Shown piece by piece: positions 14,856-60,181 of a stretch of DNA of 64,000 bases. The notes beneath the pieces are model-generated. The model did not search any database, was not told where the DNA came from, and saw only the letters and a list, made by a program, of their open reading frames with translations. Source of the DNA: Malonomonas rubra DSM 5091 (GTDB taxonomy: Bacteria > Desulfobacterota > Desulfuromonadia > Desulfuromonadales > Geopsychrobacteraceae); contig NZ_FQZT01000008.1 of assembly GCF_900142125.1 (NCBI RefSeq), forward strand, positions 62,001 to 126,000, read 5' to 3'. The position numbers were made by a program, and so were the translations under genes. Numbering within the stretch: position 1 is the first letter of the stretch; each line of letters begins with the position of its first letter.

Positions 14856-15610
14856 GCGATGTCCTGAGAATCGAAAATCTGGGCCACTCCTACGGTAAGT
14901 TCAAGGTGATCGAGGATATTTCTTTAAGCATCGGTAAAGGCGAAATGTCGGCGTTGATCGGCCCCAACGGTGCTGGAAAAACCACCTTTTACAATGCCAT
15001 TTCCGGGCATTTTCCACCGACCAAAGGCAAGGTATTCCTCAACGGTGAGGAGATCACCGGCTTGACCTCGCACAAGGTGGTCGATAAAGGGATGTGCCGC
15101 TCTTTCCAGATCACCAATATTTTCTCCGAGCTGACGGTGCTGGAAAACGTCATCGCACCCTTGATCATCCAGCGGGGAAAGCACTTCAAAATCTACGGCA
15201 ACATTTTCAAGGACAAACAGATTGTCGACAGCGCCATGCAAACGCTGGAGCAGGTCGGCCTTAGCGACCGCGCCGATCAGGTGGTGGCCAACCTGGCTTA
15301 CGGCGATAAACGACTTGTGGAGATGGCAATCGTGCTGGCCCGCAAACCGAGCGTGGTGCTCTTGGACGAACCAACCGCCGGGATGAACCCGGAGGAAACC
15401 GAGAACATGATCGCGCTGATCAAAAAGCTGGCGACTGGCTCCGGTACCACCTTCTTCATCACCGAGCACGATATGAAAGTCGTTTTCTCGCTGGCGGAAA
15501 AAATCTATGTGCTGCACCAGGGACACCTTCTGGCTCAGGGCAGCCCGGAACAGATTCGCAGCAACGAGCAGGTGCAGGAAGCCTACCTGGGGAGAAAAGT
15601 CCATGCTTAA
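14852..15610 (+). CDS. livG: Branched-chain amino acid ABC transporter ATPase LivG (operon 1)
   Basis: ATP-binding subunit of 252 residues. Walker A is GPNGAGKTT, the Walker B region is VVLLDEPTAGMNPEE and the switch His is in FITEHDMKVV. The signature loop reads LAYGDKRLVEMA, the LivG-type replacement for LSGGQ. The start overlaps the end of livM, and the end overlaps the start of livF by 8 bases. Confidence 0.93.
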   Translation: MSDVLRIENLGHSYGKFKVIEDISLSIGKGEMSALIGPNGAGKTTFYNAISGHFPPTKGKVFLNGEEITGLTSHKVVDKGMCRSFQITNIFSELTVLENVIAPLIIQRGKHFKIYGNIFKDKQIVDSAMQTLEQVGLSDRADQVVANLAYGDKRLVEMAIVLARKPSVVLLDEPTAGMNPEETENMIALIKKLATGSGTTFFITEHDMKVVFSLAEKIYVLHQGHLLAQGSPEQIRSNEQVQEAYLGRKVHA

Positions 15611-45895: not shown

Positions 45896-48018
45896 TGAAA
45901 CTTCTCCACCCACTGCAACAGCTTCTCTGGCGCGTGCTCTTTCTTCCAGATTCCGGCCGTCATCTTGTTCGCCTCTGCCAACGTCGGATAGGTGTGAATA
46001 GTGCCGAGGATTTTGTTCAGGCCCAAGTTGTGCTTCATCGCCAGCACGTACTCGGCCAGTAAGTCACCGGCGTGGGTGCCGACAATCGTCACACCGAGAA
46101 TTTTATCCGTGCCCGGCCTGGTCAACACCTTGACCCAGCCATGGTCCTCGCTGTCGGCGATCGCCCGGTCGAGATCATCAATACCGTAACGGGTGACCTC
46201 AAAAGGAACTTTCTGTTCTGTCGCTTCGAATTCATTCAGCCCGACCCGCGCCACTTCAGCATCGGTGAAGGTTGCCCAGGGGATGACCCGGTAGTCGACC
46301 TTGAAGCTCTTGAAACCGCTGAACAGGGCATTGACAGATGCGTACCAGGCCTGGTGGCTGGCGGTGTGGGTAAACTGGTAAGGTCCGGCGACATCACCGG
46401 CACAATAAATATTCGGGTAGTTGGTCGCCAACAGCAAATCGACGGCAACCGTGCCGTTTTTATTGAGTTCCACCCCCAGCTCTTCCAGTCCAAAACCGGT
46501 CACGTTCGCTTTGCGACCGACCGCGACCAGCAGATGGCTGAACTCGATTTCAACCGTTTCTCCCCGATGCTCGCAAACCAGGACCTGTCTGCCCTCAGCA
46601 ACCTGCACCTCTTTAGCCGCGTGGCCAGTCAGAACGGTTATGCCTTCACTGACAAACTTCTCCTGCACGAACGCGCTAACCTCGGGATCTTCACGGCTCA
46701 AAATCCGTGGCAACATCTCTACCTGGGTCACTTGGCTCCCGAGTCGGGCAAAGGCCTGGGTGAGTTCGCTACCGATCGGGCCACCACCAAGAACAACCAG
46801 TTTTTCCGGCAATTCGCGCAACCCCCAGAGGTTATCGGAGGTCAGATACTCAACCTGATCCAGGCCTTTAATCGGCGGAACAAAAGGGCGCGCCCCGGTG
46901 GCGATGATGATGCTGCGGCTCGTTAACACCTGTCCGTTGACTTCAACCGTCCAGGGCGAGGTGATTTTCGCTTCGCCCGCGATGACCTCAACACCGAGCC
47001 CGGTATAACGCTCCACCGAATCATGTGGCTCAACCTTTTCCACCACCTGCTGCACCCGCTCCATCACGCGGGCAAAATCGAACTCGACCTCGGCTTTTTC
47101 GAAACCGAACTCTTTGGCCCGTTTGGCGTAAGAGAGCATCTTGGCGCTGCGGATCAACGCTTTACTCGGCACACAACCGGTATTCAGGCAATCGCCGCCC
47201 ATCTTGTGTTTTTCAATCAGCGCCACTTTCGCTTTGACTGCTGCGGCAATATAACTGCTCACAAGTCCGGCACTGCCGGCACCAAGCACGACCAGGTTAT
47301 AGTCAAATTTTTGCGGCCGCTGATAACCAGCGTAAACCTTTCGCGCCTGAAAAATGCCGAGAATTTTTTTCGTCACCAGCGGGAAGATCCCGAGCAGAAC
47401 AAAAGAGAAGATGATACCGGGCGATAGAATGCCCGCAGCGCTCTCCAGTTGGCCAAGCTGGGTTCCGGCGTTGACGTAAACCACCGTCCCGGCGAACATG
47501 CCGATCTGACTGACGATGTAGAAAAGAGAGGTTTTAAGCGGCGTCAACCCCATCACCAGGTTGATGACGAAGAACGGGAAGAGCGGCACCAGCCGTAGCG
47601 AAAAGAGATAAAACGCGCCCTCTTTTTCCACCCCCCGGTTGATCGCCTGCAGCTTGTCTCCAAATTTGCCCTGCACCCAGTCCCGCAGTAAAAAACGGGA
47701 AACCAGAAACGCCAATGTCGCACCGATACTGCTGGCGAAACTCACTACGATCAGCGCCGCCCAGAAACCGAACAGCGCACCGCCAGCCAGCGTCATCACA
47801 GCTGCACCCGGCAGAGAGAGGGCTGTCACCGCAACATAAATGAAAAAATAGATACCGAGGGTTAACAGCTTGTTCTGCAGATAAAAATCGTTGAAACCCT
47901 GCTGCTGGCTTTTCAGGTACTCCAGGGTGAAATACTGCCCCAGGTCGAAAAGAAAAAAGGCCATGACCAACAGGCCAATAACAGCAAGCAGGATCATTTT
48001 CATCGTACGATTTTTCAT
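45877..48018 (-). CDS. TVP38 (VTT) domain fused to a pyridine nucleotide-disulfide oxidoreductase
   Basis: Protein of 713 residues. Residues 1-230 are a VTT membrane domain very like the stand-alone protein at 34164-34901 (TALSLPGAAVMTLAGGALFGFW, LRLVPLFPFFVINLVMGLT). Residues about 240-713 are a class I flavin disulfide oxidoreductase (FAD loop VVLGAGSAGLVSSY, redox pair GGDCLNTGCVPSKALIRSAK, NAD loop VLGGGPIGSEL, FAD site IYCAGDVAGP and a C-terminal HTYPTLAEA). This resembles mercuric reductase or lipoamide dehydrogenase, but with no N-terminal HMA domain. The cytosolic enzyme would be tied to the membrane; electron partner and substrate are unknown. GAGGAGAAAA precedes the ATG. Confidence 0.92.
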   Translation of the reverse strand: MKNRTMKMILLAVIGLLVMAFFLFDLGQYFTLEYLKSQQQGFNDFYLQNKLLTLGIYFFIYVAVTALSLPGAAVMTLAGGALFGFWAALIVVSFASSIGATLAFLVSRFLLRDWVQGKFGDKLQAINRGVEKEGAFYLFSLRLVPLFPFFVINLVMGLTPLKTSLFYIVSQIGMFAGTVVYVNAGTQLGQLESAAGILSPGIIFSFVLLGIFPLVTKKILGIFQARKVYAGYQRPQKFDYNLVVLGAGSAGLVSSYIAAAVKAKVALIEKHKMGGDCLNTGCVPSKALIRSAKMLSYAKRAKEFGFEKAEVEFDFARVMERVQQVVEKVEPHDSVERYTGLGVEVIAGEAKITSPWTVEVNGQVLTSRSIIIATGARPFVPPIKGLDQVEYLTSDNLWGLRELPEKLVVLGGGPIGSELTQAFARLGSQVTQVEMLPRILSREDPEVSAFVQEKFVSEGITVLTGHAAKEVQVAEGRQVLVCEHRGETVEIEFSHLLVAVGRKANVTGFGLEELGVELNKNGTVAVDLLLATNYPNIYCAGDVAGPYQFTHTASHQAWYASVNALFSGFKSFKVDYRVIPWATFTDAEVARVGLNEFEATEQKVPFEVTRYGIDDLDRAIADSEDHGWVKVLTRPGTDKILGVTIVGTHAGDLLAEYVLAMKHNLGLNKILGTIHTYPTLAEANKMTAGIWKKEHAPEKLLQWVEKFHAWRRG

Positions 48019-48282
48019 TTTTCTCCTCTATTGGCTCACCATGGCTGTTTTCTTTGCCAAGTATTGTGCTATAAAATTTGTTGAGTAGATTAGTCATCTA
48101 AAGGATAGCTGTTTTTTTCCTTTTGTGGGATGTCTTAGCGTGAATTTTATTCCGCAGCATCGCTGTAGCTCCTTTAAAAAACAAAGTTCATCGCGGCTAA
48201 ACTAATTTTCACAAAATTTGTTGCATTTTTTCCAAAGATGAAAAATGATACGTCTTCATGACATAGAGTTTTACTCGACTTT

Positions 48283-48374
48283 ACACAGGAGGAGCCAACG
48301 CCGGTTATCCGGGTGTGCAACGATGCCGCCAAAAGTCTGGACAGAAAGAGCCGACTGGGCGGCTTTTTATTTTT
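48283..48374 (+). promoter_or_regulatory. Structured leader of livK2 with terminator-like hairpin (candidate riboswitch or attenuator)
   Basis: In the 412-base gap before livK2, ACAC (48283-48286) can pair with GTGT (48313-48316), enclosing a CCGG-TTAT-CCGG hairpin (48301-48312). Then GCCGCC (48325-48330) pairs with GGCGGC (48358-48363), around an inner AGTC/GACT stem, followed by TTTTTATTTTT. This looks like an intrinsic terminator 60 bases before the ATG, preceded by another folded element. An alternative pairing of AAAGAGCCG with CGGCTTTTT overlaps it. I cannot match it to a named riboswitch class; GGACAGA recalls glycine aptamers but other hallmarks are absent. Confidence 0.55.
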
Positions 48375-48430
48375 GCTGCGTTTGCATCTGCAACTGCGGT
48401 TTTCATCACCACTTGATACGGAGGAATTTT

Positions 48431-49597
48431 ATGAGAAGAGTTCTGACTACACTGCTGATGACCACTATCGCCATGATGCTGGCTATTCCGGCAATGGCAG
48501 CCGACACCATCAAAATCGGCTTCAACATCCCGATGACCGGTGATATCCCGGAAGTCGGTGAAGGCTCCAAAAACGCTGCCGAAATGTACCTGGCCGATAT
48601 CAACGGTGCCGGCGGCGTCGAAGTCGGTGGCAAAAAATACATGCTCGAGTTCGTCTACATGGACAACGAGTCGAAAGCCGAATCTGCTGTTACCGCAGCC
48701 CTGAAGCTGATCGAGCAGGAAGAAGTTGTTGCCATTATTGGCCCGAACTCTTCCAAGCAGGCTGTTCCAGGCGGTGGTACCGCCAACGACAACCGCGTTC
48801 CGATGATCAGCCCCTGGTCGACCAACCCGAACACCACCCTGGATCGTCCCTGGGTTTTCCGCGCTGCTTTCCTCGACCCCTTCCAAGGCCCAGTTGCAGC
48901 CAACTTTGCAGCAAAAAAATATAACGCTAAAACTGCTGCGGTTCTCTTCGACATTTCCAACGATTATTCCGTCGGCCTGGCAGAAGCGTTCAAAGCTGCC
49001 TGGGACGCAAAAGGTCTCGGTCCGGTTGTCGCTTACGAATCTCACGGCACCAAGGACCAGGACTTCTCGGCTCAACTGACCACCATTATCAAAGCAAACC
49101 CGGACTTCATCTTTGTCCCGGACAACTACAACCAGGTTGCCCTGATCATCCCGCAGGCACGTGACCTCGGCTACAAGGGCCCCTTCATGGGCGGTGATGC
49201 CTGGGGTACTCCTGACCTGGTCAAGCTTTGTGGCGAAGAGTGCTACGGCCAATATTTCTCCACCCATTATGCTGCCGCTGGTGCCACCGGCGCCACCAAG
49301 GTTTTCATCGACCGCTACAAGGCAAAGTATGGTGCTGAGCCGGCTGATTACGCTGCTCTGACCTGGGATTCCATCGGCTTGCTGGTTGAAGGCATCAAGA
49401 ATGCCGGCAAGGTTGAGAAGAACCCACGTAAAATGCGCCAAGCAATCCGCGACGGTCTGGCCGCCATCAAGTCGTTTGACGGCATCACCGGTTCGTCAAA
49501 ATTCGACGAGCAGGGAGACCCGATCAAGTGCGCTGTCGTTGTTAAGGTGGCCAACGACGGTAGCTTCCAGTTTGAGGAATCTGTCTGCCCCGAGTAA
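48431..49597 (+). CDS. livK: Branched-chain amino acid ABC transporter, periplasmic binding protein (operon 2)
   Basis: Periplasmic binding protein of 388 residues. The ATG at 48431 follows ACGGAGGAATTTT and starts the signal peptide MRRVLTTLLMTTIAMMLAIP, cut after AMA. The mature start DTIKIGFNIPMTGDIPEVGEGSKNAAEMYL belongs to the Peripla_BP_6 family. It is clearly distinct from the operon 1 protein and includes a C-terminal pair of Cys (KCAVVV, ESVCPE). The gene is preceded by a structured leader and followed by a UUCG hairpin. Confidence 0.92.
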   Translation: MRRVLTTLLMTTIAMMLAIPAMAADTIKIGFNIPMTGDIPEVGEGSKNAAEMYLADINGAGGVEVGGKKYMLEFVYMDNESKAESAVTAALKLIEQEEVVAIIGPNSSKQAVPGGGTANDNRVPMISPWSTNPNTTLDRPWVFRAAFLDPFQGPVAANFAAKKYNAKTAAVLFDISNDYSVGLAEAFKAAWDAKGLGPVVAYESHGTKDQDFSAQLTTIIKANPDFIFVPDNYNQVALIIPQARDLGYKGPFMGGDAWGTPDLVKLCGEECYGQYFSTHYAAAGATGATKVFIDRYKAKYGAEPADYAALTWDSIGLLVEGIKNAGKVEKNPRKMRQAIRDGLAAIKSFDGITGSSKFDEQGDPIKCAVVVKVANDGSFQFEESVCPE

Positions 49598-49625
49598 TAA
49601 AAAAAGAACATAAGTATTGTACTGT

Positions 49626-49647
49626 GCGGGGGTCTTCGGACCCCCGC
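49626..49647 (+). terminator. UUCG hairpin after livK2
   Basis: A perfect 9-bp GC-rich stem (GCGGGGGTC and complement) capped by TTCG, 28 bases after the binding-protein stop. TTTACTG follows, too short for a strong terminator, so it is likely a mRNA stabiliser or partial terminator. Confidence 0.8.
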
Positions 49648-49706
49648 TTTACTGCGTCAATTATGGCCGTTGCACGCTTTAAAGAATTACCCAAGGAAAA
49701 AGTTCA

Positions 49707-50618
49707 GTGGATTTTATTTTTCAGAATGTCTTGAACGCCTTGCAGTGGGGGAGCTTTTACGCTCTCATTGCCCTCGGCTACACCCTGGTCTACGGGGTTC
49801 TGCGTCTGATCAACTTCGCCCATGGCGATATTTTCATGGTCGGCGCCTACATTTCTTTTTTTGTCGCCGGGTTCCTGCTCGGCCCGCTCGCCGGGCTCTC
49901 GCCGATGATGACCTTCCTGCTCACCGTGCCGCTGACCATGATTTTAACAGCCTGCGTCGGCGTCACCCTGGAGCGGATCGCCTATCGCCCGCTGCGAAGG
50001 AAAGGCGCTCACCGGCTGTACGTGGTCATCACGGCCCTGATGTGCGGACTGATCCTCGAATACTCCAACCTGGCGGTCTTGGGTGCCAGTCGGTTGAAAT
50101 TTCCGGAACTGGTTGACAAGCAGATCTGGAACGTCGGCGGAGTCGCCATCACCAACCTGAAGGTACTGGTTATCGTCGCTGCCATAGCCGTTTTCCTGTT
50201 CCTGCAGTGGGTGGTCACCCGCACCCGGGTCGGCATGGCAATGCGAGCCATCTCCTACGACAAGTTCGCCATCCCGCTAATGGGCATTCCGATGGATAAC
50301 ATCATCGTTATTACTTTTATCCTCGGATCCGGATTTGCCGGACTGGCCGGTCTACTGTTTGCCATGAGCTACCCGGTGTTGGAGCCGTTCATGGGCATGC
50401 TGATTGGCTGGAAGGCCTTTATCGCCGCCGTCGTCGGTGGTATCGGCGATATCAAAGGCGCGTTCGTCGGCGGCTTTCTACTCGGCGCGATCGAGGTAGC
50501 GGTGGTCACGGTTTTCCCGTCTACATACCGCGACCTGTTCGCCTTTACCATTCTGCTGTTGATCCTGTGGATGAAACCGACCGGTCTGTTCGGTATCCCG
50601 CAGTCGACCAAGATTTAG
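49707..50618 (+). CDS. livH: Branched-chain amino acid ABC transporter permease LivH (operon 2)
   Basis: Inner-membrane permease of 303 residues with a GTG start at 49707; AAGGAAAAAGTTCA lies just before it. LNALQWGSFYALIALGYTLVYGVLRLINFAHGD and VVGGIGDIKGAFVGGFLLGAIE are the family marks. It differs from operon 1 LivH. It is followed directly by livM2. Confidence 0.92.
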   Translation: MDFIFQNVLNALQWGSFYALIALGYTLVYGVLRLINFAHGDIFMVGAYISFFVAGFLLGPLAGLSPMMTFLLTVPLTMILTACVGVTLERIAYRPLRRKGAHRLYVVITALMCGLILEYSNLAVLGASRLKFPELVDKQIWNVGGVAITNLKVLVIVAAIAVFLFLQWVVTRTRVGMAMRAISYDKFAIPLMGIPMDNIIVITFILGSGFAGLAGLLFAMSYPVLEPFMGMLIGWKAFIAAVVGGIGDIKGAFVGGFLLGAIEVAVVTVFPSTYRDLFAFTILLLILWMKPTGLFGIPQSTKI

Positions 50619-50633
50619 TTGGGAGAGATATCT

Positions 50634-51704
50634 ATGAGACAGTATTCTCTCAACGTTCTGATGGCCTTCGTTGCCATGCTGCTATTGGTCGCGGCCCATT
50701 TCGGCTGGATCGACAACTACATCCAGATTGTCGTTATGACCATCGGCATCAACATCATCATGTCGACCAGTTTGAACCTGGTCAACGGCAACATGGGCGA
50801 ATTTACCTGCGGCCACGCTGGTTTCATGTGCGTCGGCGCTTACGTTTCGTCGGTCATTTCGGTCTTTTGTTTCGGCACCAAGCTCGGCGATCCGATGCTG
50901 CCCGCCAGCTCGGTGCTGCTTGTTTTCCCGTTCATTCTGCTGATCGGTGGTGCAGTCGCTGCCGTCTCCTCGCTGCTGGTGTCGATCCCATCGTTTAAAA
51001 CCCGCGATGACTATCTGGCGATCATCTCGATTGCTGTCAACTACATGATCATCTCGGCGCTGGAGAACATGGATTTCATCGGCGGCTCACGCGGTTTCCA
51101 GGGGATGAAAGACACCTACTGGGCGATGATCGATATCTTCGACGGTCCCTGGATGCTGTTCTGGGTGATCCTGTTCACCGCCTTCAACGTCTGGGTGATC
51201 CGACGCTTCATCAGCTCGACCTACGGCAAAGGCGTCAACGCCATCTGCCAGGACGAAGTCGCCGCCGAGATCATGAGCGTCAACACCAACAAGATCAAAA
51301 TCATCAATTTTATGGTCGCTGCCGGCCTTGCTGGCTGCGCTGGCGGCCTTTACGCGCACATCATCGGTTACGTCAACCCGCAGTCGTTCAACATCCTCAA
51401 ATCGACTGAAGCGATGGTCATGGTCTACCTCGGCGGTATGGGCTCGCTCTCCGGCGCCATCATCTCGGCGATCCTGTTCACCGGACTGATGGAGATCCTG
51501 CGCTCACAAGCGATCATCGACGGCCTGGTGTCACCGATAACCTTCATGTTCCCCGACTGGGAACCCTCTGCAGGTGTCATCAAGTGGGTGATGATCCCGC
51601 TGCTGCTGGTCATCGTTATGCAGTTCCGCCCGGAAGGGATCATGGGTAACCGCGAGCTGAGCGACGTGTTCCCGAAGTTGAAGAAGTTTTACAGGTTTAA
51701 ATGA
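50634..51704 (+). CDS. livM: Branched-chain amino acid ABC transporter permease LivM (operon 2)
   Basis: Second permease of 356 residues, about 38 longer than the operon 1 LivM. The ATG at 50634 has GGGAGAG upstream; a TTG at 50619 is less likely. INIIMSTSLNLVNGNMGEFTCGHAGFM and YLGGMGSLSGAIISAILFTGLME are recognisable LivM blocks. The stop overlaps the livG2 start by 4 bases. Confidence 0.92.
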   Translation: MRQYSLNVLMAFVAMLLLVAAHFGWIDNYIQIVVMTIGINIIMSTSLNLVNGNMGEFTCGHAGFMCVGAYVSSVISVFCFGTKLGDPMLPASSVLLVFPFILLIGGAVAAVSSLLVSIPSFKTRDDYLAIISIAVNYMIISALENMDFIGGSRGFQGMKDTYWAMIDIFDGPWMLFWVILFTAFNVWVIRRFISSTYGKGVNAICQDEVAAEIMSVNTNKIKIINFMVAAGLAGCAGGLYAHIIGYVNPQSFNILKSTEAMVMVYLGGMGSLSGAIISAILFTGLMEILRSQAIIDGLVSPITFMFPDWEPSAGVIKWVMIPLLLVIVMQFRPEGIMGNRELSDVFPKLKKFYRFK

Positions 51705-52501
51705 TGGCACAGACACAAATACAAACAGACACCACACCGGTTCTCGAAGTCCGCGGCATGACCCAGCAGTTCGGCGGCTTGCGCGCCGTGTCCGACTTCA
51801 ACGTCAAGCTGATGCCGGGAGAGTTGACCGGACTAATCGGCCCGAACGGTGCCGGCAAGACCACCGTCTTCAACCTGGTCAGCGGCTTTTACCAGCCGAC
51901 CGTCGGCGAGATCTTCATCAACGGCCAGCCAACGGCGGGCCTCAAGCCACACAAGGTCACTTCGCTCGGTGTCGCCCGGACGTTTCAGAACATTCGCCTC
52001 TGGAACGACATGACGGTGCTCGACAACATCCGCGTGGCCCAACACTACTGGCTCAACTACGGCTTTTTCAGCAGCGTCTTCCGCACCAAACAGTACAAGC
52101 AGCGCGAGGCACAGATTTCCGAAGAAGCCTATGAGCTGCTGGAAGTCTTCGACCTGATGCAATTCGCCGACGAGTTCCCGAAGAACCTGCCCTACGGAAC
52201 CCAGCGCAAACTGGAGATCGCTCGCGCTCTGTCAACCCACCCGAAGCTGCTCCTGCTGGATGAGCCGGCTGCCGGGCTCAACTCGGCCGATGCGAAAGAC
52301 CTGATCCGACTGGTGCGCTGGATCCATGAGAAGTTCGACGTCACCATCTGGATGATTGAGCACCATATGGACGTCATGATGGAACTCTGCGAACAGATCA
52401 AGGTCATTGATTTCGGTGAAACCATCGCCGAGGGCGATCCCGAAGAAATCCGCAACCACCCCGCGGTTATCACCGCGTACCTGGGAGATGATAATATCTG
52501 A
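51701..52501 (+). CDS. livG: Branched-chain amino acid ABC transporter ATPase LivG (operon 2)
   Basis: ATPase of 266 residues. Walker A GPNGAGKTT, signature-replacing loop LPYGTQRKLEIARAL, Walker B LLLLDEPAAGLN and switch His in MIEHHMDVMM are intact. ATGA overlap with livM2 and a one-base overlap with livF2 (TGATG) indicate coupled translation. Confidence 0.94.
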   Translation: MMAQTQIQTDTTPVLEVRGMTQQFGGLRAVSDFNVKLMPGELTGLIGPNGAGKTTVFNLVSGFYQPTVGEIFINGQPTAGLKPHKVTSLGVARTFQNIRLWNDMTVLDNIRVAQHYWLNYGFFSSVFRTKQYKQREAQISEEAYELLEVFDLMQFADEFPKNLPYGTQRKLEIARALSTHPKLLLLDEPAAGLNSADAKDLIRLVRWIHEKFDVTIWMIEHHMDVMMELCEQIKVIDFGETIAEGDPEEIRNHPAVITAYLGDDNI

Positions 52502-53226
52502 TGCTGCTGCAAGTCGAAAATCTCGAAGTCAAGTACGGTAATATTCAGGCGCTGCACGGGATCAGCTTTCATGTTAACGAAGGCGAGATCGTCACCCTGA
52601 TCGGTGCCAACGGTGCCGGCAAGACCACCAGCCTCTATACCATCACCCGTCTGCCGCCGCCGGAAGCACCGCGCGTTGTCGGTGGCGATATCAAGTTTAT
52701 GGGCGAATCGATCCTCAAAACCCGCCCGAGCGACGTGGTGAAAAAACTGCACCTCGCCCTCTCCCCCGAGGGACGGCGGATCTTCGGTAATCTGACGGTC
52801 ATGGAAAACCTGAAGCTGGCGACCTACGCCCGCGAAAAAGGTGCCGATCTGGATTCTGAGTACGAGCGAATATTCGAGCTGTTCCCTCGCCTGAAAGAAC
52901 GTCGAAACCAGCGCAGCGAATCTCTCTCCGGTGGTGAACAGCAGATGCTCGCCGTCGGCCGCGCCCTGATGACCGGCTGTAAAATCCTGCTGCTCGACGA
53001 GCCCTCAATGGGTCTGGCGCCGGTGCTCAAATACGAGCTGTTTCGCAAACTGAAGCAACTCAATGAAGAAGGGATGACCATACTGCTGGTTGAGCAAAAT
53101 GCGAATCTGGCACTCCACCTGGCACATCGGGGTTATGTACTCGACACCGGCAATATTGTCGCCGAGGGGACTAGCGAGGAATTGCTGGGGAACCCGGAGG
53201 TGAAAAAAGCTTACTTGGGGGGATAA
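52501..53226 (+). CDS. livF: Branched-chain amino acid ABC transporter ATPase LivF (operon 2)
   Basis: ATPase of 241 residues. Walker A GANGAGKTT, LSPEGRRIFGNLTVMENL, signature LSGGEQQMLAVGRAL and Walker B LLLLDEPSMGLAP are intact. The last codons (VKKAYLGG) and the terminator beyond recur 1.3 kb downstream as part of a degenerate repeat (54489-54595). It is the last gene of livKHMGF operon 2. Confidence 0.94.
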   Translation: MLLQVENLEVKYGNIQALHGISFHVNEGEIVTLIGANGAGKTTSLYTITRLPPPEAPRVVGGDIKFMGESILKTRPSDVVKKLHLALSPEGRRIFGNLTVMENLKLATYAREKGADLDSEYERIFELFPRLKERRNQRSESLSGGEQQMLAVGRALMTGCKILLLDEPSMGLAPVLKYELFRKLKQLNEEGMTILLVEQNANLALHLAHRGYVLDTGNIVAEGTSEELLGNPEVKKAYLGG

Positions 53227-53301
53227 AATTTACACTTCTGATTTTGGTTCTATTCTGACAAAAAGCCACTGTTGTTAGTTACAGCAGTGGCTTTTTGTCA
53301 G
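53201..53301 (+). repeat. Copy A of livF-tail/terminator direct repeat
   Basis: Contains the last codons of livF2 (TGAAAAAAGCTTACTTGGGG) and its terminator. The first 20 bases match copy B at 54489-54508 in 19 of 20 positions, and a second matching block surrounds the left terminator arm. The segment between these blocks has diverged. Confidence 0.7.
53255..53301 (+). terminator. Rho-independent terminator of liv operon 2
   Basis: Perfect 17-bp arms (53255-53271 and 53285-53301) around GGCTTTTTGTCAG, with the T run in the right arm. A strong operon terminator; a related but weaker form occurs in copy B of the repeat. Confidence 0.92.
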
Positions 53302-53307
53302 AAAGAA

Positions 53308-53406
53308 TTAAAAGAGAGGAACATGAAAGGTCAAATACAGATCTCTTTGCGAACTGTCATCATCTTGAATTGCTTGCTGGAGCACCTGTCCCATCGAACT
53401 TGTCAT
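53308..53406 (-). pseudogene. Truncated cheW-like N-terminus (32 codons)
   Basis: AAGGAG stands 6 bases before an ATG at 53404-53406, and the frame runs 32 codons to a TAA at 53308-53310. The peptide MTSSMGQVLQQAIQDDDSSQ then RDLYLTFHV resembles the beginning of CheW proteins, where a hydrophilic tail leads to a LTFxLGxE strand, but it stops right after LTFHV. The stop lies 7 bases from the liv terminator repeat, so the gene seems to have been cut at a rearrangement point. Confidence is limited by the short length. Confidence 0.35.
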
Positions 53407-53505
53407 CACCATCTCCTTCTGGAAAACAACGCGAACGACAGAAAAAATCGCCCCTCTAAAAATGGGTGGTTATGAAAGTTCGACAAAACGCATTCTGCTG
53501 GAACA

Positions 53506-53718
53506 TCAACTCTGCCACAGGGTCCAGGCCAGATCATTTTTATTGTTACTTTGGGTAAATTTAGCTGCGCAAGTCTGACACTGGTAATCCTGCTCTTCAA
53601 ACCTTCTGGACTTAACACCTTTGAATATCCGCTGTTCACCAACTTTGCTCAATTGTTCATGCGGTTTGCTCCTGCTGTTTTTCTTGCCCTGTTCTTTACA
53701 TTGCTCACAAATACTCAT
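53506..53718 (-). CDS. Small zinc-ribbon protein
   Basis: A 70-residue protein with two CxxC knuckles: MSICEQCKEQG at the N-terminus and YQCQTCAAKFTQ near residue 45, typical of a zinc ribbon. The intervening region is basic. AAGAGAA lies upstream. It follows the larger zinc-ribbon gene by 53 bases and lies within the repeat-flanked segment. Function unknown. Confidence 0.65.
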   Translation of the reverse strand: MSICEQCKEQGKKNSRSKPHEQLSKVGEQRIFKGVKSRRFEEQDYQCQTCAAKFTQSNNKNDLAWTLWQS

Positions 53719-53771
53719 TATGTTCTCTTTTCATGGGTTAGTTTCCGGTATGACACAATCGCGCAGAGGGT

Positions 53772-54176
53772 TTATTTACAACGCATGATTTTTCTGCCTG
53801 TTGAGAAAAGTACCTCAATTTTTCGCGAACCGGCATTACCCTGTACCAATCCGAGACCGAAAACCGGGTGACTGATCAGGGCATTAGGCTTATAAGGTGC
53901 GGCCATTGAATACTCAATGACTTTACTTTGATCAGCGACAGCAAGCTGATTCTCCCACTTCTTCTGCTCGCTTTCGACCTTTCGCGGCGCTTGTTTGGTG
54001 TAGGCCCTTTTGGGCGCAATAGGCGGCCTGTACTTATGCTTGCGGCTACAAAGGGTGCACTCGACTTTTTCCGGCACATTGTCCACAAGACTAACAATTA
54101 TCGATTCGGTATTCAGTTTGCACTTGGTACAACGGGCCTGAATCTGGTCACCAGGGGCGAGGATCGTATCGGGCAT
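53772..54176 (-). CDS. Zinc-ribbon protein with SH3-like tail
   Basis: Protein of 134 residues. Two CxxC pairs (ARCTKCKLN, VECTLCSRKHKY) form a zinc ribbon; a basic linker with RAYTKQAPRKVESEQKKW follows; the C-terminal HPVFGLGLVQGN...IEVLFSTGRKIMRC resembles the small SH3/Tudor-like nucleic-acid-binding tail found on some helicases and RNA-polymerase-associated proteins. It precedes the small zinc-ribbon gene in the same direction. Nucleic-acid binding is inferred. Confidence 0.75.
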   Translation of the reverse strand: MPDTILAPGDQIQARCTKCKLNTESIIVSLVDNVPEKVECTLCSRKHKYRPPIAPKRAYTKQAPRKVESEQKKWENQLAVADQSKVIEYSMAAPYKPNALISHPVFGLGLVQGNAGSRKIEVLFSTGRKIMRCK

Positions 54177-54488
54177 TATAAACTCCCATTGGCTGAGCCA
54201 AGTTATGGCCTCTAAAGCCCAGGGAGACAGCTGGAATAAAAGAGTCGCTTGACAGGTTAATTCTATACAGACAGCGTATTGTTCTTTTCAGTCCTTATCG
54301 TACATCTCCATACGGATGGAAGGGTTGGCGTCGTATTAGAAAGGAACGGCTGTCAGCAGATTTTTAAGCTTACTCCTTTAGACACAATAAAGATAGTCAG
54401 GAGAAAAAAAGGGGCAGGCACCTTTTACGCCTGCACTTTCCCACTAACTATCCTGTTAAGAAGCCTCCATCACATCAGCCGCCAAGGG
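54177..54488. other. Non-coding segment with a palindromic short repeat
   Basis: 312 bases between the zinc-ribbon gene and repeat copy B. AAAAAAAGGGGCAGGCACCTTTT near 54403-54425 resembles REP-type elements seen in related genomes; the short ORFs that cross it look non-coding. Confidence 0.4.
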
Positions 54489-54595
54489 TGAAGAAAGCTT
54501 ACTTGGGGTTGCAGGTTTGCCCTTATGCTCTCGATTCGTTAGGATGTTTGATTGAGACAAAAAGTCACTGTTAGTTTAAACTACGGTGACTTTTT
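54489..54595 (+). repeat. Copy B of livF-tail/terminator direct repeat
   Basis: TGAAGAAAGCTTACTTGGGG at 54489-54508 repeats the livF2 3' end with one mismatch, and GACAAAAAGTCACTGTTAGTT (54556 onward) matches the left arm of the livF2 terminator. The hairpin arms AAAAAGTCAC / GTGACTTTTT at 54559-54568 and 54586-54595 can still act as a terminator. No complete livF precedes it, so it is a remnant or a duplicated junction. Confidence 0.65.
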
Positions 54596-54655
54596 AATTC
54601 ACAGGTTGTTTCATTGCTGCTAGATAGCAAAAATTGTGCGTGAAAGGAAAAGTAT

Positions 54656-54937
54656 ATGAGCGAAAAAATTACTGAGAAAGAACTGTTTGATATGGCCGAT
54701 AAGTTTATCTCTGTCGCAAACCAATTAGTTCAAAATAACGACCAAAACCTGCCGAAAGTCGGGGCGGCGTTTCGCTATGCCGCTGCAAGGTTCAGTGCCC
54801 ACGAAGCATCCCTTAGCACTGCGAATCTGGCTGAAGAGAGAGTAAACGCATTGGCCTGGTTTACAGAGCAGTACAACACTATGCTGCAAAAAAATTTGGA
54901 CCAGTACGTTGCCCTTCAGCAAAAGGAAAATAAATAA
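54656..54937 (+). CDS. DUF3144 family protein
   Basis: Soluble helical protein of 93 residues. DMADKFISVANQLVQ, VGAAFRYAAARFSAHEAS and FTEQYNTMLQKNLDQYVAL fit the DUF3144 family, whose function is unknown. AAAGGAAAAGTAT precedes the ATG. It is the first gene after the livF-tail repeat. Confidence 0.82.
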   Translation: MSEKITEKELFDMADKFISVANQLVQNNDQNLPKVGAAFRYAAARFSAHEASLSTANLAEERVNALAWFTEQYNTMLQKNLDQYVALQQKENK

Positions 54938-54968
54938 ACAGGGTTCATGACTCGTTAAGCATTAAAGG

Positions 54969-55382
54969 ATGGAGCCAGAAAAGGTGAATTCAATAGTTAC
55001 AATAATTCTTTCGCTAATTCCATTTGTCGTGGTGGGAGGCTGGCTTGTCTACAAAGCAACAAAATCGAAGCATTCTTTCCTGGCAAAGCCTGGAGGCTCA
55101 CCGCAAAAGATAAGAGTCGGGGATAAAAACTACATTGTCAGAAAAAAGTCCAGGATTCTGGCGGTTGAAAAGAAAACAGGAAAAGAAGTCATTGTCACGA
55201 CCTGCGGGTTTGAAAACGAACAGACTCAGCTGGATGAAGAGCTCAAAACCCTGCCTGAAGGGGTAAAAATTCGCTACAAGCTGGACAACGGAATTTTCTC
55301 TCCAGAGGAATCTGACTGGTTAGCGGGCGAAGACTTTAGTTTTTCAGGGGTAACCCAGGTTGAAGAATATGAACAGGAATAA
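54969..55382 (+). CDS. Membrane-anchored protein of unknown function
   Basis: Protein of 137 residues. One N-terminal membrane span (about 9-28, IVTIILSLIPFVVVGGWLVY) is followed by a basic linker and a soluble beta-rich domain (VGDKNYIVRKKSRILAVEKKTGKEVIVTTCGF) with an acidic C-terminus. Not a family I recognise. A start at the ATG (54969) or at a GTG 5 codons later is possible. It lies 31 bases after DUF3144. Confidence 0.6.
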   Translation: MEPEKVNSIVTIILSLIPFVVVGGWLVYKATKSKHSFLAKPGGSPQKIRVGDKNYIVRKKSRILAVEKKTGKEVIVTTCGFENEQTQLDEELKTLPEGVKIRYKLDNGIFSPEESDWLAGEDFSFSGVTQVEEYEQE

Positions 55383-55455
55383 AAACTAGCAGACTATCGC
55401 AGCCGGCAAACTCATCGTCTCCCCTCACAGCAAACACCACAAGCAAAGGGCAACA

Positions 55456-56112
55456 ATGGAAACCAACGTCTTCGAACGCACTCACACCACTGCAACTGAA
55501 ATCAGTGCACACCTTTACAACGCCATTATCGGCATCACCCTGCTGGTCGGTTTCGCCATCAATTACGCGATGGTTAAATACATCCCGGTTGAAGCGATCC
55601 TGTCGATCAACACCTGGGTGTTTTTCATCGGCTACTTTGTCTGCTGCATGGCCGGAGTAGCCCTGTTCTCGAGATCAGACAACCCTGCGGTCAGTTTTCT
55701 CGGCTACCTGCTGGTAGTCACACCGTTCGGACTGGTGATCAACCTGGTGGTCAGCCGCTATAATCCAGCCATCGTGATCGATGCGATCCAGGCGACAGCG
55801 TTGATTACCACCATCATGATGATCCTCGGCACCATGTACCCGGCTTTTTTCCGCGGCATCGCCCGTGGGCTCTTCGTAGCGCTGCTCTGCACCATCGTTG
55901 TCGAGCTGGTGGCGATCTTTATTTTCAAAACCCATCACACCATCATCGACTGGATCGTGGTGCTGATCTTCAGTGGTTATATCGGCGTTGACTGGGGTCG
56001 CGCCAACAGTATCCCGCGCACCGTCGATAACGCTATCGATTCGGCAGCAGCGCTTTACATGGATATCATCAACCTGTTCCTGCGCCTGGTGAGAATTCTG
56101 GGACGGCGCTAG
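55456..56112 (+). CDS. Bax inhibitor-1/YccA family membrane protein
   Basis: Protein of 218 residues with seven membrane spans. HLYNAIIGITLLVGFAINYAMVKY at the N-terminus and a C-terminal IVVLIFSGYIGVDWGRA, with a conserved Asp, match the YccA/YbhL/BI-1 family, whose bacterial members affect protease control or act as proton-driven calcium leaks. GGCAACA precedes the ATG. The role here is not evident from context. Confidence 0.85.
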   Translation: METNVFERTHTTATEISAHLYNAIIGITLLVGFAINYAMVKYIPVEAILSINTWVFFIGYFVCCMAGVALFSRSDNPAVSFLGYLLVVTPFGLVINLVVSRYNPAIVIDAIQATALITTIMMILGTMYPAFFRGIARGLFVALLCTIVVELVAIFIFKTHHTIIDWIVVLIFSGYIGVDWGRANSIPRTVDNAIDSAAALYMDIINLFLRLVRILGRR

Positions 56113-56204
56113 GTTCAGCAAAAACACCGAGGAAGGCCAACTCAATCATCTGCATTGCGCTTTCGCTTGGCCCTTTTATTCAGATTGAAGAGCGCTGATC
56201 GCTA

Positions 56205-57332
56205 CTACCACTTCTCTTTTTTTGGTTCCAGCTTTACCAGTTCGTATGTGCGGCTTCCCAAACCGACCTTTTCTGCGTGTTCCAAGGTCACCTCCCAATC
56301 GATGGCTGGATGCACGCCGCGGAACTTGTCACCACCCGGCTCATGACCAGTGGCGAGGGCGGTTCCCGGTAAACCCTGCGCCTGGTTGACCAGGTCGGCG
56401 CAAGCCTGATCAATGGCAACCGGGTCCTGGCTGACGAGGATGCCGATATCGGCAACAATCGCGGCATCGGAATGACCGTAGCAGTCGCAGGCCGGGCTGA
56501 CCTGGGTGATGAAATTGACATAGAGCTGCTTACCCTGCTTTCCGGTTACCGCGCCGAGTGCGTATTCGGCCATTTTGCGCATGACGTTATCGGCCGCTTC
56601 GTTCCACTGAATCTGGATGGCCTGTTGCTCGCAAACAGTGATGCAGCGGCTGCAACCGGCGCAGCGCTCCGGGTCGATGACAGCGGTGGTGTTACTGAAA
56701 CTGATAGCACCATGAGCGCAGGAGCGCAGGCAGGCGCGACAGAGATTGCAGCGTTTTCCATCAACAACCGGGGCAACGCTCGAGTGCTGCTCCAGTTTTC
56801 CTTCCCGGCTGGAGCAACCCATCCCCAGATTTTTGATCGCGCCGCCGAAACCGGTCAGTTCGTGGCATTTGAAATGGCTGACTGTCAGCAGCATATCAGC
56901 TTCAAGAATTTCCAGACCGATATCGGTCGACTGCAACACCTCACCCGAAATCGGCACCCGCTTTGCCGAAGAGCCACGTAAACCGTCAGACATGATCAGC
57001 GGAGCATCAACCACGGCATAAGCGAAGCCGTTCTGGATACCGCATGCCAGCGCCGAAACGGCCTCTTTACGCTGCCCCGGGTAAAGGGTGTTGGAATCGG
57101 TCAAAAATGGCTTGCCGCCAGCGGCCTTGACCCGCTCAACGATTTCCCGGATAAAAACCGGCCGGACATAAGCGTGTCCGCCCTTTTCTCCGAAATGCAA
57201 CTTGATAGCGCTCAGGTCGCCCTCGGCAACCAGTTCCTGTAAACCAGCAGCCTCAAGCAAGCGACGGAGTTTAACAAACAGGTTTTCCCGGCTTCCGGCA
57301 CGCAAATCAGCAAACCAAACGGGTACTGACAT
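56205..57332 (-). CDS. DUF362 protein with two 4Fe-4S ferredoxin motifs
   Basis: Protein of 375 residues. The DUF362 part (LFVKLRRLLEAAGLQELV, AIKLHFGEKGGHAYVRP, HFKCHELTGFGGAIKNLGMGCSS) is followed at about 195-240 by two Cys clusters, CNLCRACLRSCAHGAI and CAGCSRCITVCEQQAI, each ready to bind [4Fe-4S]. A later CDCYGHSDAAIVADIG is also characteristic. The family role is unknown, though electron transfer is implied. ATG follows AGGAGGAAAGAAG. Stand-alone on the minus strand. Confidence 0.9.
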   Translation of the reverse strand: MSVPVWFADLRAGSRENLFVKLRRLLEAAGLQELVAEGDLSAIKLHFGEKGGHAYVRPVFIREIVERVKAAGGKPFLTDSNTLYPGQRKEAVSALACGIQNGFAYAVVDAPLIMSDGLRGSSAKRVPISGEVLQSTDIGLEILEADMLLTVSHFKCHELTGFGGAIKNLGMGCSSREGKLEQHSSVAPVVDGKRCNLCRACLRSCAHGAISFSNTTAVIDPERCAGCSRCITVCEQQAIQIQWNEAADNVMRKMAEYALGAVTGKQGKQLYVNFITQVSPACDCYGHSDAAIVADIGILVSQDPVAIDQACADLVNQAQGLPGTALATGHEPGGDKFRGVHPAIDWEVTLEHAEKVGLGSRTYELVKLEPKKEKW

Positions 57333-57390
57333 CTTCTTTCCTCCTGGAAAATAGAATATTTATTCGCGTAATCTGGCAAGCTGGCCATGA

Positions 57391-58773
57391 TCAGCGCTTA
57401 CTTTTTTCTCCAAACACAGCCGCATCCATCGCCCGGCTCAATCGATTCTGCCGATCCTCTTTGTCGGGTTCCGGCTCTTTCGTTTCCGGCAATTCACGCT
57501 CTTCAAAAACAATCGATGCCGGCTTTGTGACCCTCGGTGCAGCCAGTTCTTCTTCGACATTTCCAATCGTGACCCGTTCTTTTGCCGGAAAAATTTCGTC
57601 AGCTTGCCCTGCAAGAGGAACCTCTGCACTTCCGTCCGATTCTCGTGCCAGCAGTTCTGAAGCATCACTCACGCAGGGTTCTATTGCTTCCAGTGTTTCG
57701 ATTGTCTCTTCTTCAGTGATCGCCGCACTTGAAGCATCAAGCTGATCAATGCCCGTTTCAGCGTTCTCTGGCGAAACCGGATCCTCGCTGATGACCTGCT
57801 GTTCGAAATTCTCTACTTTTTTCTTTTTTAAAGTACGGATGCAAAGTAACGCACCAAGGAGCAGCAAGAGCGAGGCAAAAGCGATGGTCAGGCTGGATGG
57901 TAAAAAGTTGTCGACATCAATTTTTTTTCCGGCAACGGCCGTTGCAATTTCAGGTGGCTTTGTCCGCTCCGGCTGTTCTGCGTGTTCAATTGCAGGCATC
58001 TTTTCCGTAGCCTCGATCTCGACCGGCAGTGCAGTCTCCGTTTCTGCACTTGCCGATTGATCCACATCTGCAACGGGCAAAGCTGCTTCTACAGAACTGA
58101 CCGGAACAGAGTTCATCGCTTCCGCGTCGGCCTCAACGGGTACAGACTGCTCAGGCGCAACAGTCACCTCTTCAGGGACGTCCACAGGCTCACTGCTCAA
58201 ATCGATATCTTGAGCGGTTACAGAGGGCTCTTCGACAGGCACAACATTCGCCGCCGTCACCTCTGGCGCAGCAACTGCAGTCTCTTCGACGCTGTCGGAT
58301 ATGACCGCCGACGCAGCAAGCTCGTCAGAAACAGGTTCGGCCTGCTCGAGCATCGGGGCCTCTTCCAACTCGACCGCAGTTGGAAGGGCAGCCGTTTCAA
58401 CCTCTTCAGGCTGGTACATTTTGACCAGCCGGTTGCGGCTGATGTAGACATTCATCATCATCGCATCGGGATAGACCTGCCGAACTCTGGCCAACAGCTC
58501 TTCAGCTGTTGCAAGATCCGCAAATCCCCCAACCCGCACGACGTAATAATCATCGAGATTCTCGATCCGCAGGTTCTCCAAGTCTGCGTCTTGGAGCTTA
58601 GAGCGAACCTGATCAAACTGCCGCAAAGCCCGTTCTTCGGTCAGGTGGCTGCCAATCTGGACAGAGTTGACCAGGTCTGCCGCAAGTACAGATCCTGCAA
58701 AAGCGATCAGGAACAGGACAATCCAGACCATTAGTCCTTTGTGTAAAACTGGCATTTTTTTACGCTTCCACAT
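57391..58773 (-). CDS. SPOR-like/FimV-like membrane protein
   Basis: Protein of 460 residues. A signal sequence (about 10-31) leads to a periplasmic SPOR-like repeat (LVNSVQIGSHLTEERALRQFDQV, YYVVRVGGFADLATAEELLARVRQVYPDA) at about 35-110. A low-complexity region rich in Pro, Glu, Val and Ala covers about 115-290. A membrane span near 293-312 is followed by KKKK and an acidic cytosolic tail. This periplasmic-domain/span/acidic-tail layout recalls FimV, which uses LysM instead of SPOR. GGGGGAGTT precedes the ATG. Peptidoglycan binding is inferred. Confidence 0.7.
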   Translation of the reverse strand: MWKRKKMPVLHKGLMVWIVLFLIAFAGSVLAADLVNSVQIGSHLTEERALRQFDQVRSKLQDADLENLRIENLDDYYVVRVGGFADLATAEELLARVRQVYPDAMMMNVYISRNRLVKMYQPEEVETAALPTAVELEEAPMLEQAEPVSDELAASAVISDSVEETAVAAPEVTAANVVPVEEPSVTAQDIDLSSEPVDVPEEVTVAPEQSVPVEADAEAMNSVPVSSVEAALPVADVDQSASAETETALPVEIEATEKMPAIEHAEQPERTKPPEIATAVAGKKIDVDNFLPSSLTIAFASLLLLLGALLCIRTLKKKKVENFEQQVISEDPVSPENAETGIDQLDASSAAITEEETIETLEAIEPCVSDASELLARESDGSAEVPLAGQADEIFPAKERVTIGNVEEELAAPRVTKPASIVFEERELPETKEPEPDKEDRQNRLSRAMDAAVFGEKSKR

Positions 58774-58969
58774 AACTCCCCCCGATTCCGTTTCGCATTA
58801 TCTCCAGATGCGAGCAGGATTCTAAATTTCCAAAGTATGTGAAAGTATCAAGTATTCTCTCTCCGTTCAACCAAGAGACAACAGTACTCGCAAATTCAGG
58901 GGCAAATTTGTTAAGGTTGGCAAATAGACTGAAGTCCTGCGTCCAAACGAAGAACAAAGGTTCACTGCC

Positions 58970-59485
58970 ATGCCAGTTACAATCATCCACAGTTACCAAT
59001 TAACCAAAGACCTCTGGCGCCAGTTTTACGAGGCCCATTACAGCTGCGACCGCGGGTTGAAAATGCGTTACCTGTGGGGAGCGGTCTGTATTTTCATCGG
59101 CTCGCTCGGATTCGGTGGTTATTACGAATCGAAGCTTGTCGCCGGGCTGCTGCTGGCAACCGGTTTCTTCGGTGTTTTGTCAAAGCACCTGCTGATCTAT
59201 AAATCGCTGCGGGCTGCCAGCGAGCACCCTTTTTTCGGCAAAGAGCTGACCGTTTCCGTATCCCCGGAAGAACTTTCGGTCCGCAGTGAAAACTCAGGCT
59301 ACAGCCAGCCGTGGGACAACTTTATCGGCTATCGCAGGCTGAACCCCGGCTTTCTGCTTTACCACGACCGCAACTCTTTCTTTTTCATCCCGACAGCCGA
59401 ACTGACCGCTGGTGATATCAACCGGATTCTACGAATTTTAACTGACTCCCAAGTGCCTGAGGTTCAGGATTTCAGGCGTAAATAA
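58970..59485 (+). CDS. YcxB-like membrane protein
   Basis: Protein of 171 residues. Two spans at about 33-50 and 55-72 (YLWGAVCIFIGSLGF, GLLLATGFFGVLSK) precede a soluble beta-rich domain with KELTVSVSPEELSVRSENSGYSQPWDNFIGYRR, the YcxB-like C-terminal pattern. Divergent from the SPOR-like gene across about 196 bases with no other gene. Function unknown. Confidence 0.75.
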   Translation: MPVTIIHSYQLTKDLWRQFYEAHYSCDRGLKMRYLWGAVCIFIGSLGFGGYYESKLVAGLLLATGFFGVLSKHLLIYKSLRAASEHPFFGKELTVSVSPEELSVRSENSGYSQPWDNFIGYRRLNPGFLLYHDRNSFFFIPTAELTAGDINRILRILTDSQVPEVQDFRRK

Positions 59486-59534
59486 AGGCGCAAAGAATTT
59501 CTTTGAAATGCAATCCAATCAAAAGGACGAGAAC

Positions 59535-59789
59535 ATGAACAACACGGAAAAAGGAAAACAGATGCTGGAAGAAGTTGCGCTTCGTTACGCCGAAGGTCAC
59601 GGCCTGCGCCCCACAGTTGAGTGGGTTGACCAGGGCTACGAATGGCTGTTGCGGCTCAACACCGATGAGCACACGGTACGGGTCGGTTTTTCCATCGACG
59701 AAATCGAGTTTTTTGTCGATGGCAGCGCGGAAGAGAACAGAGATACCAAGATGAAAATACGCAACGCTTTTGCCAGCTTGTCGATGTAG
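59535..59789 (+). CDS. Small protein of unknown function (84 aa)
   Basis: AGGA stands 7 bases before the ATG at 59535. The protein is beta-rich (HGLRPTVEWVDQGYEWLLRLNTDEHTVRVGFSIDEIEFFVDG) with a helical N-terminus (GKQMLEEVALRYAEG). No family recognised. It is collinear with the YcxB-like gene, 49 bases after it. Confidence 0.65.
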   Translation: MNNTEKGKQMLEEVALRYAEGHGLRPTVEWVDQGYEWLLRLNTDEHTVRVGFSIDEIEFFVDGSAEENRDTKMKIRNAFASLSM

Positions 59790-59833
59790 CAACCGGCCCG
59801 GGTGACGCTAAGTCCGGCTCAATTCTTTCACGT

Positions 59834-60181
59834 TCAACATTTTGCCAAGCGTCGAACGAGATCAACCTCGGCATAGCGACCGAGCGTTTCCAACGCATCC
59901 ACCCCACTGTCGAGATGCTCTTTTGCGTCACCGGAAAGATATGCGGACAAAAAAGCGGCCAGCTCGGCTTGTGCTGCGGCCTGCTTTTCCTCCGGCGTAC
60001 GCTTCTTCCCAGCTTCCAGCCACAAGTTCTCGGAGCGATTCTGGTGAAAGCTGCGGGCCTCCGCAAGCAGGCTCAGCCGTGTTTCCAATGACTCATCGCC
60101 GCCGGTCCGAAAAGCCTCCAGCAAATCATCGCTGAAACCATCCTGAATCAATTCCACGAGTCTGATCAGTTTATTCTTCAT
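59834..60181 (-). CDS. Small helical protein of unknown function (115 aa)
   Basis: All-helical, acidic protein (RLVELIQDGFSDDLLEAFRTGGDES, EEKQAAAQAELAAFLSAYLSG, LETLGRYAEVDLVRRLAKC). It starts one base after the end of the GIY-YIG gene, so the two are probably coupled. No family recognised. Confidence 0.7.
   Translation of the reverse strand: MKNKLIRLVELIQDGFSDDLLEAFRTGGDESLETRLSLLAEARSFHQNRSENLWLEAGKKRTPEEKQAAAQAELAAFLSAYLSGDAKEHLDSGVDALETLGRYAEVDLVRRLAKC

Follow-up and report, generated by a model that had tools for sequence, protein, structure and literature searches.

Rearrangements are known to leave junctions whose short flanks are duplicated or templated: short copies of nearby sequence lie at the breakpoint, in order, together with unrelated filler. 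Integrative elements at gene 3' ends leave a comparable picture, a direct repeat of the gene end (attL and attR) flanking foreign DNA. The locus described here lies in a 64,000-nucleotide stretch of Malonomonas rubra DSM 5091 (the window), taken from contig C33 of a genome of 42 contigs and 3.96 Mb. Like the former, it combines ordered copies of nearby sequence with unrelated filler and, like the latter, a directly repeated gene 3' end with foreign-looking DNA. It differs from the rearrangement junctions in having two islands with fillers of unequal length and no sister genome with the prior state, and from integrative elements in lacking an integrase, in spanning only 1.3 kb, and in repeats that are imperfect and discontinuous (21/22 and 16/17). 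We put at roughly even the chance that this is a scar left by a lineage-specific rearrangement, one that would have placed a zinc-ribbon gene pair behind livF.

The locus comprises, in order, livF with terminator 1, a cheW stub, the zinc-ribbon pair, a REP-like hairpin, copy 2 of the repeat, terminator 2 and a DUF3144 gene. The gene livF (52501-53226, plus strand) encodes the ABC ATPase of a branched-chain amino acid transporter (Pfam ABC_tran, 8e-25; BCA_ABC_TP_C, 1.7e-6) and ends VKKAYLGG-stop (GTG AAA AAA GCT TAC TTG GGG GGA TAA). It belongs to a complete livJHMGF operon (48245-53226); another liv gene pair is found near 15 kb of the window, and further liv loci are located on other contigs. 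Among the 80 matches listed, the closest livF is that of Desulfuromonas sp. BM304, a MAG (95% amino acid identity).

Repeat comparison and a genome-wide pattern search distinguished two repeat islands, both on the plus strand. The last livF codons (GGTGAARAAAGCTTACTTGGGG; 53199-53220) are repeated 1,288 bp further on (54487-54508) with 21 of 22 bases identical; the 22-mer GGTGAAAAAAGCTTACTTGGGG recurs at 54487 with a single, synonymous difference (AAA/AAG), and its second copy lacks livF sequence on either side as well as a stop codon. A 17-nt island in the arm of terminator 1 (GACAAAAAGYCACTGTT; 53257-53273) is repeated with 16 of 17 bases identical at 54556-54572, i.e., GACAAAAAGCCACTGTT of terminator 1 is found again at 54556 with one difference. 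The spacing of 1,288 bases that the sequence-only reading had given for both islands holds for the 22-mer; that of the terminator arm is 1,299 bp.

Allowing up to two mismatches, the 22-mer has only these two sites in the whole 3.96 Mb genome, and the 17-mer has the same number plus the reverse arm of terminator 1 itself. Among 208 loci outside the own genome (partly overlapping), neither pattern was found within two mismatches, and a single livF-type site with three to five mismatches was found in 18. Three pairs of 22-mers matching at 21/22 and at most 3 kb apart occur in the window: one is the livF repeat, and those at 15119 and 51843 fall within neighboring liv ABC-ATPase genes and represent coding paralogy. 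The window holds one near-collinear double 16/17 match, the livF/terminator repeat. Neither a 21/22 pair nor such a double match appeared in any of 30 Markov resamples of the window, a result that bears out the earlier claim of a livF end and terminator repeated with order and direction kept, and speaks against the objection, raised along with it, that the matches might be no better than chance.

The repeat is not continuous. Its islands are separated by 36 nt in copy 1 and 47 nt in copy 2, and these spacers align at chance level (604 of 1000 shuffles score equal or better). With just 2 differences over the 39 bases of both islands, this does not fit a single simple duplication. From the terminator arm onward, 29 of 40 bases match ungapped, a figure that, judged by eye, a few small gaps would raise. 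After GGGG, copy 2 continues TTG CAG where relatives have the livF stop, and its first in-frame stop falls inside terminator 2; copy 2 encodes nothing. The filler flanking it contains no further local copies (the longest exact match, 11 nt, is like that of random stretches).

Terminator 1 (53253-53303, plus strand) consists of a nearly perfect inverted repeat of 23 bp, bordered on both sides by A and T runs (fold of -38.0 kcal/mol, z -10.6), and the related terminator 2 (54556-54595, plus strand) folds at -18.6 kcal/mol (z -3.9). Both hairpins show the stable stem and following T run of intrinsic terminators (T5 at the 3' arm), although a simple terminator scan listed neither terminator 2 nor, on the plus strand, terminator 1. 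A stem pair that is C-G in the first terminator is T-A in the second, and both sequences fold, so that the hairpin was kept while the sequence moved. Transcription probably still ends at both hairpins, of which terminator 1 stands between the convergent livF and zinc-ribbon genes and terminator 2 ahead of DUF3144, and the symmetrical terminator 1 probably acts on both strands. In a search of Rfam that admitted E-values up to 1, each of the 10 matches fell far short of its gathering score, and nine were to microRNA models, placed on terminator 1. The position of terminator 1 is well suited to ending livF as well as the minus-strand genes that converge on it.

Beside terminator 1, the minus strand of 53314-53412 encodes MVMTSSMGQVLQQAIQDDDSSQRDLYLTFHVPL, corresponding to approximately the first 30 codons of a cheW gene cut off near the terminator; the remainder of cheW is missing at the locus. 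The stub matches the starts of ORFs in two of the nine other genomes of the genus, G006 and G008 (E-values of 0.008 and 0.0099, which are weak), in the frame DSQRDLFLTFH, and the G006 ORF encodes CheW (Pfam, 9.9e-42). The stub recognized in the sequence-only reading thus proved real, on weak E-values. Its 33 residues alone gave no match to the CheW profile, and no ORF of at least 60 aa similar to the CheW of G006 was found in the 17 zr134 loci of relatives or in positions 48001-60000 of the window.

Two zinc-ribbon-like genes follow on the minus strand: one for a 70-aa protein with two CxxC pairs (53506-53718; homologues in relatives, no Pfam family) and zr134 (53772-54176), for a 134-aa protein that carries two CxxC pairs and, at its C terminus, a conserved domain. 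The 134-aa protein has no significant Pfam family; its homologues are encoded in 38 of the 44 genomes of the family (own included). Of the 17 zr134 loci inspected in relatives, 12 also carry the 70-aa partner next to it, one of these being truncated at a contig end. The two form a conserved pair, found in other contexts in relatives. Apart from the zinc-ribbon genes, no neighbor in the other four own-genus loci (G003, G009, G005 and G008) belongs to a family that occurs in at least three loci, save an overlapping antisense frame; zinc-ribbon loci within a different genus of the family share several neighbors.

The region upstream of zr134 (54177-54374, minus strand) resembles the leaders of its relatives. 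An alignment of 16 leaders, comprising that of the window and 15 of 29 listed upstream regions picked by eye for likeness (L137, L146 and more distant upstream regions were left out), was folded with RNAalifold. In the predicted structure CUCCCU, which may pair with the AGGGAG ribosome-binding site, does so within 11 pairs; with one both-sided change and a covariation term of +0.2, the fold has no covariation support. The resemblance to the leaders of relatives lies in the pattern GATTCCAG..TCTCCCTGG..GGCCA..TTGGCT..AAGGGAG-ATG.

To the right of the repeat lies the DUF3144 gene (54656-54937, plus strand; Pfam DUF3144, 2.2e-21), present in 5 of 60 relatives, own included, and located near a contig start in G001. 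A gene for a 137-aa protein has a homologue in G009 in a different context, and a gene at 55456 (Bax1-I, Pfam) has weak matches only, in two of the nine other genomes of the genus. Judged by this comparison, the stretch is a mosaic of genes unlinked in relatives. In another genus of the same family (G011, contig C95, 1762-4929), DUF3144 lies about 1.7 kb upstream of an orthologous livJ, i.e., at the opposite end of the operon; the proximity of DUF3144 to liv genes in that genome and in the window may be due to chance or to an old link.

The end of livF could be read in four relatives (G001, G005, G003 and BM304). Neither the zinc-ribbon pair behind livF nor the livF-end repeat was present in any of them, and the DNA behind livF differs in each, for which reason no empty site was found; nor did any relative have livF adjoining DUF3144. 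The DNA behind livF is thus a variable junction in the genus, differing among the window genome and the four relatives read. The insertion at a gene end proposed earlier, or a rearrangement, fits these data: the pair is conserved, lies in other contexts, and is not behind livF in these four; the empty site looked for at their livF ends was not found. Relatives with the segment and without the repeat, named as the opposing case, speak neither way, as no relative has the segment at this place.

In the preferred reading, a rearrangement scar, the segment would have been inserted, or left behind by a deletion, and the livF end with its terminator would have been partly duplicated at the right junction, either through a target or tandem duplication with later replacement of its interior or through template switching in two short pieces. 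The reading draws on islands that have no further copies in the genome, keep their order and are absent from the simulations, and on the lower G+C content of the segment parts right of terminator 1 (0.38-0.47) than of the liv operon (0.555). It also draws on the other contexts of the zinc-ribbon pair and the unrelated places of DUF3144 and the 137-aa gene in relatives, on a cheW broken beside terminator 1, and on terminators that differ by a paired change and both still fold. Against it count the unalignable spacer, which a simple single duplication does not fit, a filler without the further local copies that template switching might leave, and the lack of an empty site or of a relative with livF beside DUF3144. 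A striking direct repeat round a gene end would on this reading be explicable by ordinary rearrangement, and nothing at the locus points to a new mechanism or a new kind of system.

The earlier suggestion that most of a third liv operon was lost here is not supported. Copy 2 would then be the remnant of another diverged liv operon ahead of DUF3144, its livF tail kept by coding constraint, its terminator diverged with compensation, and all but the last 22 bases deleted. Such a history accounts jointly for the conserved coding island, the unalignable spacer and the compensated terminator, and the sole mismatch in the 22-mer is synonymous, with AAG also used in G005 and G003. However, when 53 open frames of three orthologous liv loci were compared with 53227-54655 (tblastn), a YLG-type tail and otherwise scattered weak matches were obtained, with no other liv fragment; moreover, copy 2 lacks the stop, and no similar liv tail or terminator exists elsewhere in the genome. 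We regard this history as unlikely. Still less probable is a decayed integrative element that targeted the livF 3' end, with the copies as attL and attR. The direct repeat of a gene 3' end around foreign-looking DNA and the different DNA behind livF in each of the four relatives suit it, but the Pfam scan detected no recombinase domain and no transposase in any of the 10 listed ORFs of at least 50 aa inside the segment. The element would also be no more than 1.3 kb long, the 22-mer, with just two occurrences genome-wide, frames no larger island, and the terminators would need a separate duplication.

The conserved island, variable linker and kept hairpin are also the pattern of paralogous terminator-ended RNAs, and the copies could be a pair of related small RNAs, one formed by the livF 3' end and terminator 1, the other free-standing and ending at terminator 2, with a common 22-mer seed and a free linker. 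This is quite improbable, given that no sigma-70-like promoter precedes copy 2 (plus strand, scan of 53100-54700), that no Rfam family was assigned and that the pair was not found in relatives. The narrower proposal, in which copy 2 is a putative free-standing RNA gene derived from the livF 3' end, with a 22-nt seed kept that has the same sense as the last livF codons, the terminator compensated and the linker drifted, strikes us as highly doubtful; were it true, the RNA could serve as a decoy, drawing off whatever binds the livF 3' end. That two short matches coincide by chance is a similarly slim prospect. The window is one of very many read for oddities, the islands are short and terminators share a grammar of A run, stem and T run, yet no resample reached either match and the genome has neither pattern anywhere else.

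Several readings of the right edge were tried and dropped. As a plus-strand coding tail (31 aa), the copy 2 region gave no more than weak matches (E-values of 0.037 to 0.52), in five of the 43 other family genomes, with DNA unlike by eye. As a minus-strand tail (32 or 30 aa), it was found in the own genome only, both among 136 genomes of the order and among 395 genomes of the phylum (an evenly drawn sample). A transposase tail was not supported by genome, plasmid or phage searches: the peptide had no match in plasmids at an E-value of 1 (a longer query gave six weak matches, E-values of 2-6) and two weak matches in phages (E-value of 6). Viral contigs matched neither of two patterns nor the exact 19-mer, and the right-edge DNA was not found in plasmids (54330-54650) or in phages and E. 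coli genomes (54259-54655).

The REP-like hairpin stretch (about 54402-54457, plus strand) includes a hairpin with a T run on the minus strand (54434-54414). Of the REP-like repeat described in the sequence-only reading, the hairpin stands, with a 57-nt, 77% match at one locus in G008, and the repetition does not, as the genome holds a single copy at the pattern searched; the pattern is matched in 13 of the 44 genomes of the family, own included. Compared with REP sequences and their tyrosine transposases, the hairpin resembles a GGGGACAGGCACC repeat of relatives, one copy of which adjoins a Y1-transposase-like ORF recognized by eye, and differs in being single and in having no transposase in the segment. 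The names Y1 transposase and rhomboid for ORFs of relatives were likewise assigned by eye. At L211 (G025, contig C147, 306-3721), several GGGGACAGGCACC repeats surround a Y1-transposase-like ORF together with small ORF pairs resembling, by eye, nucleotidyltransferase/HEPN toxin-antitoxin pairs.
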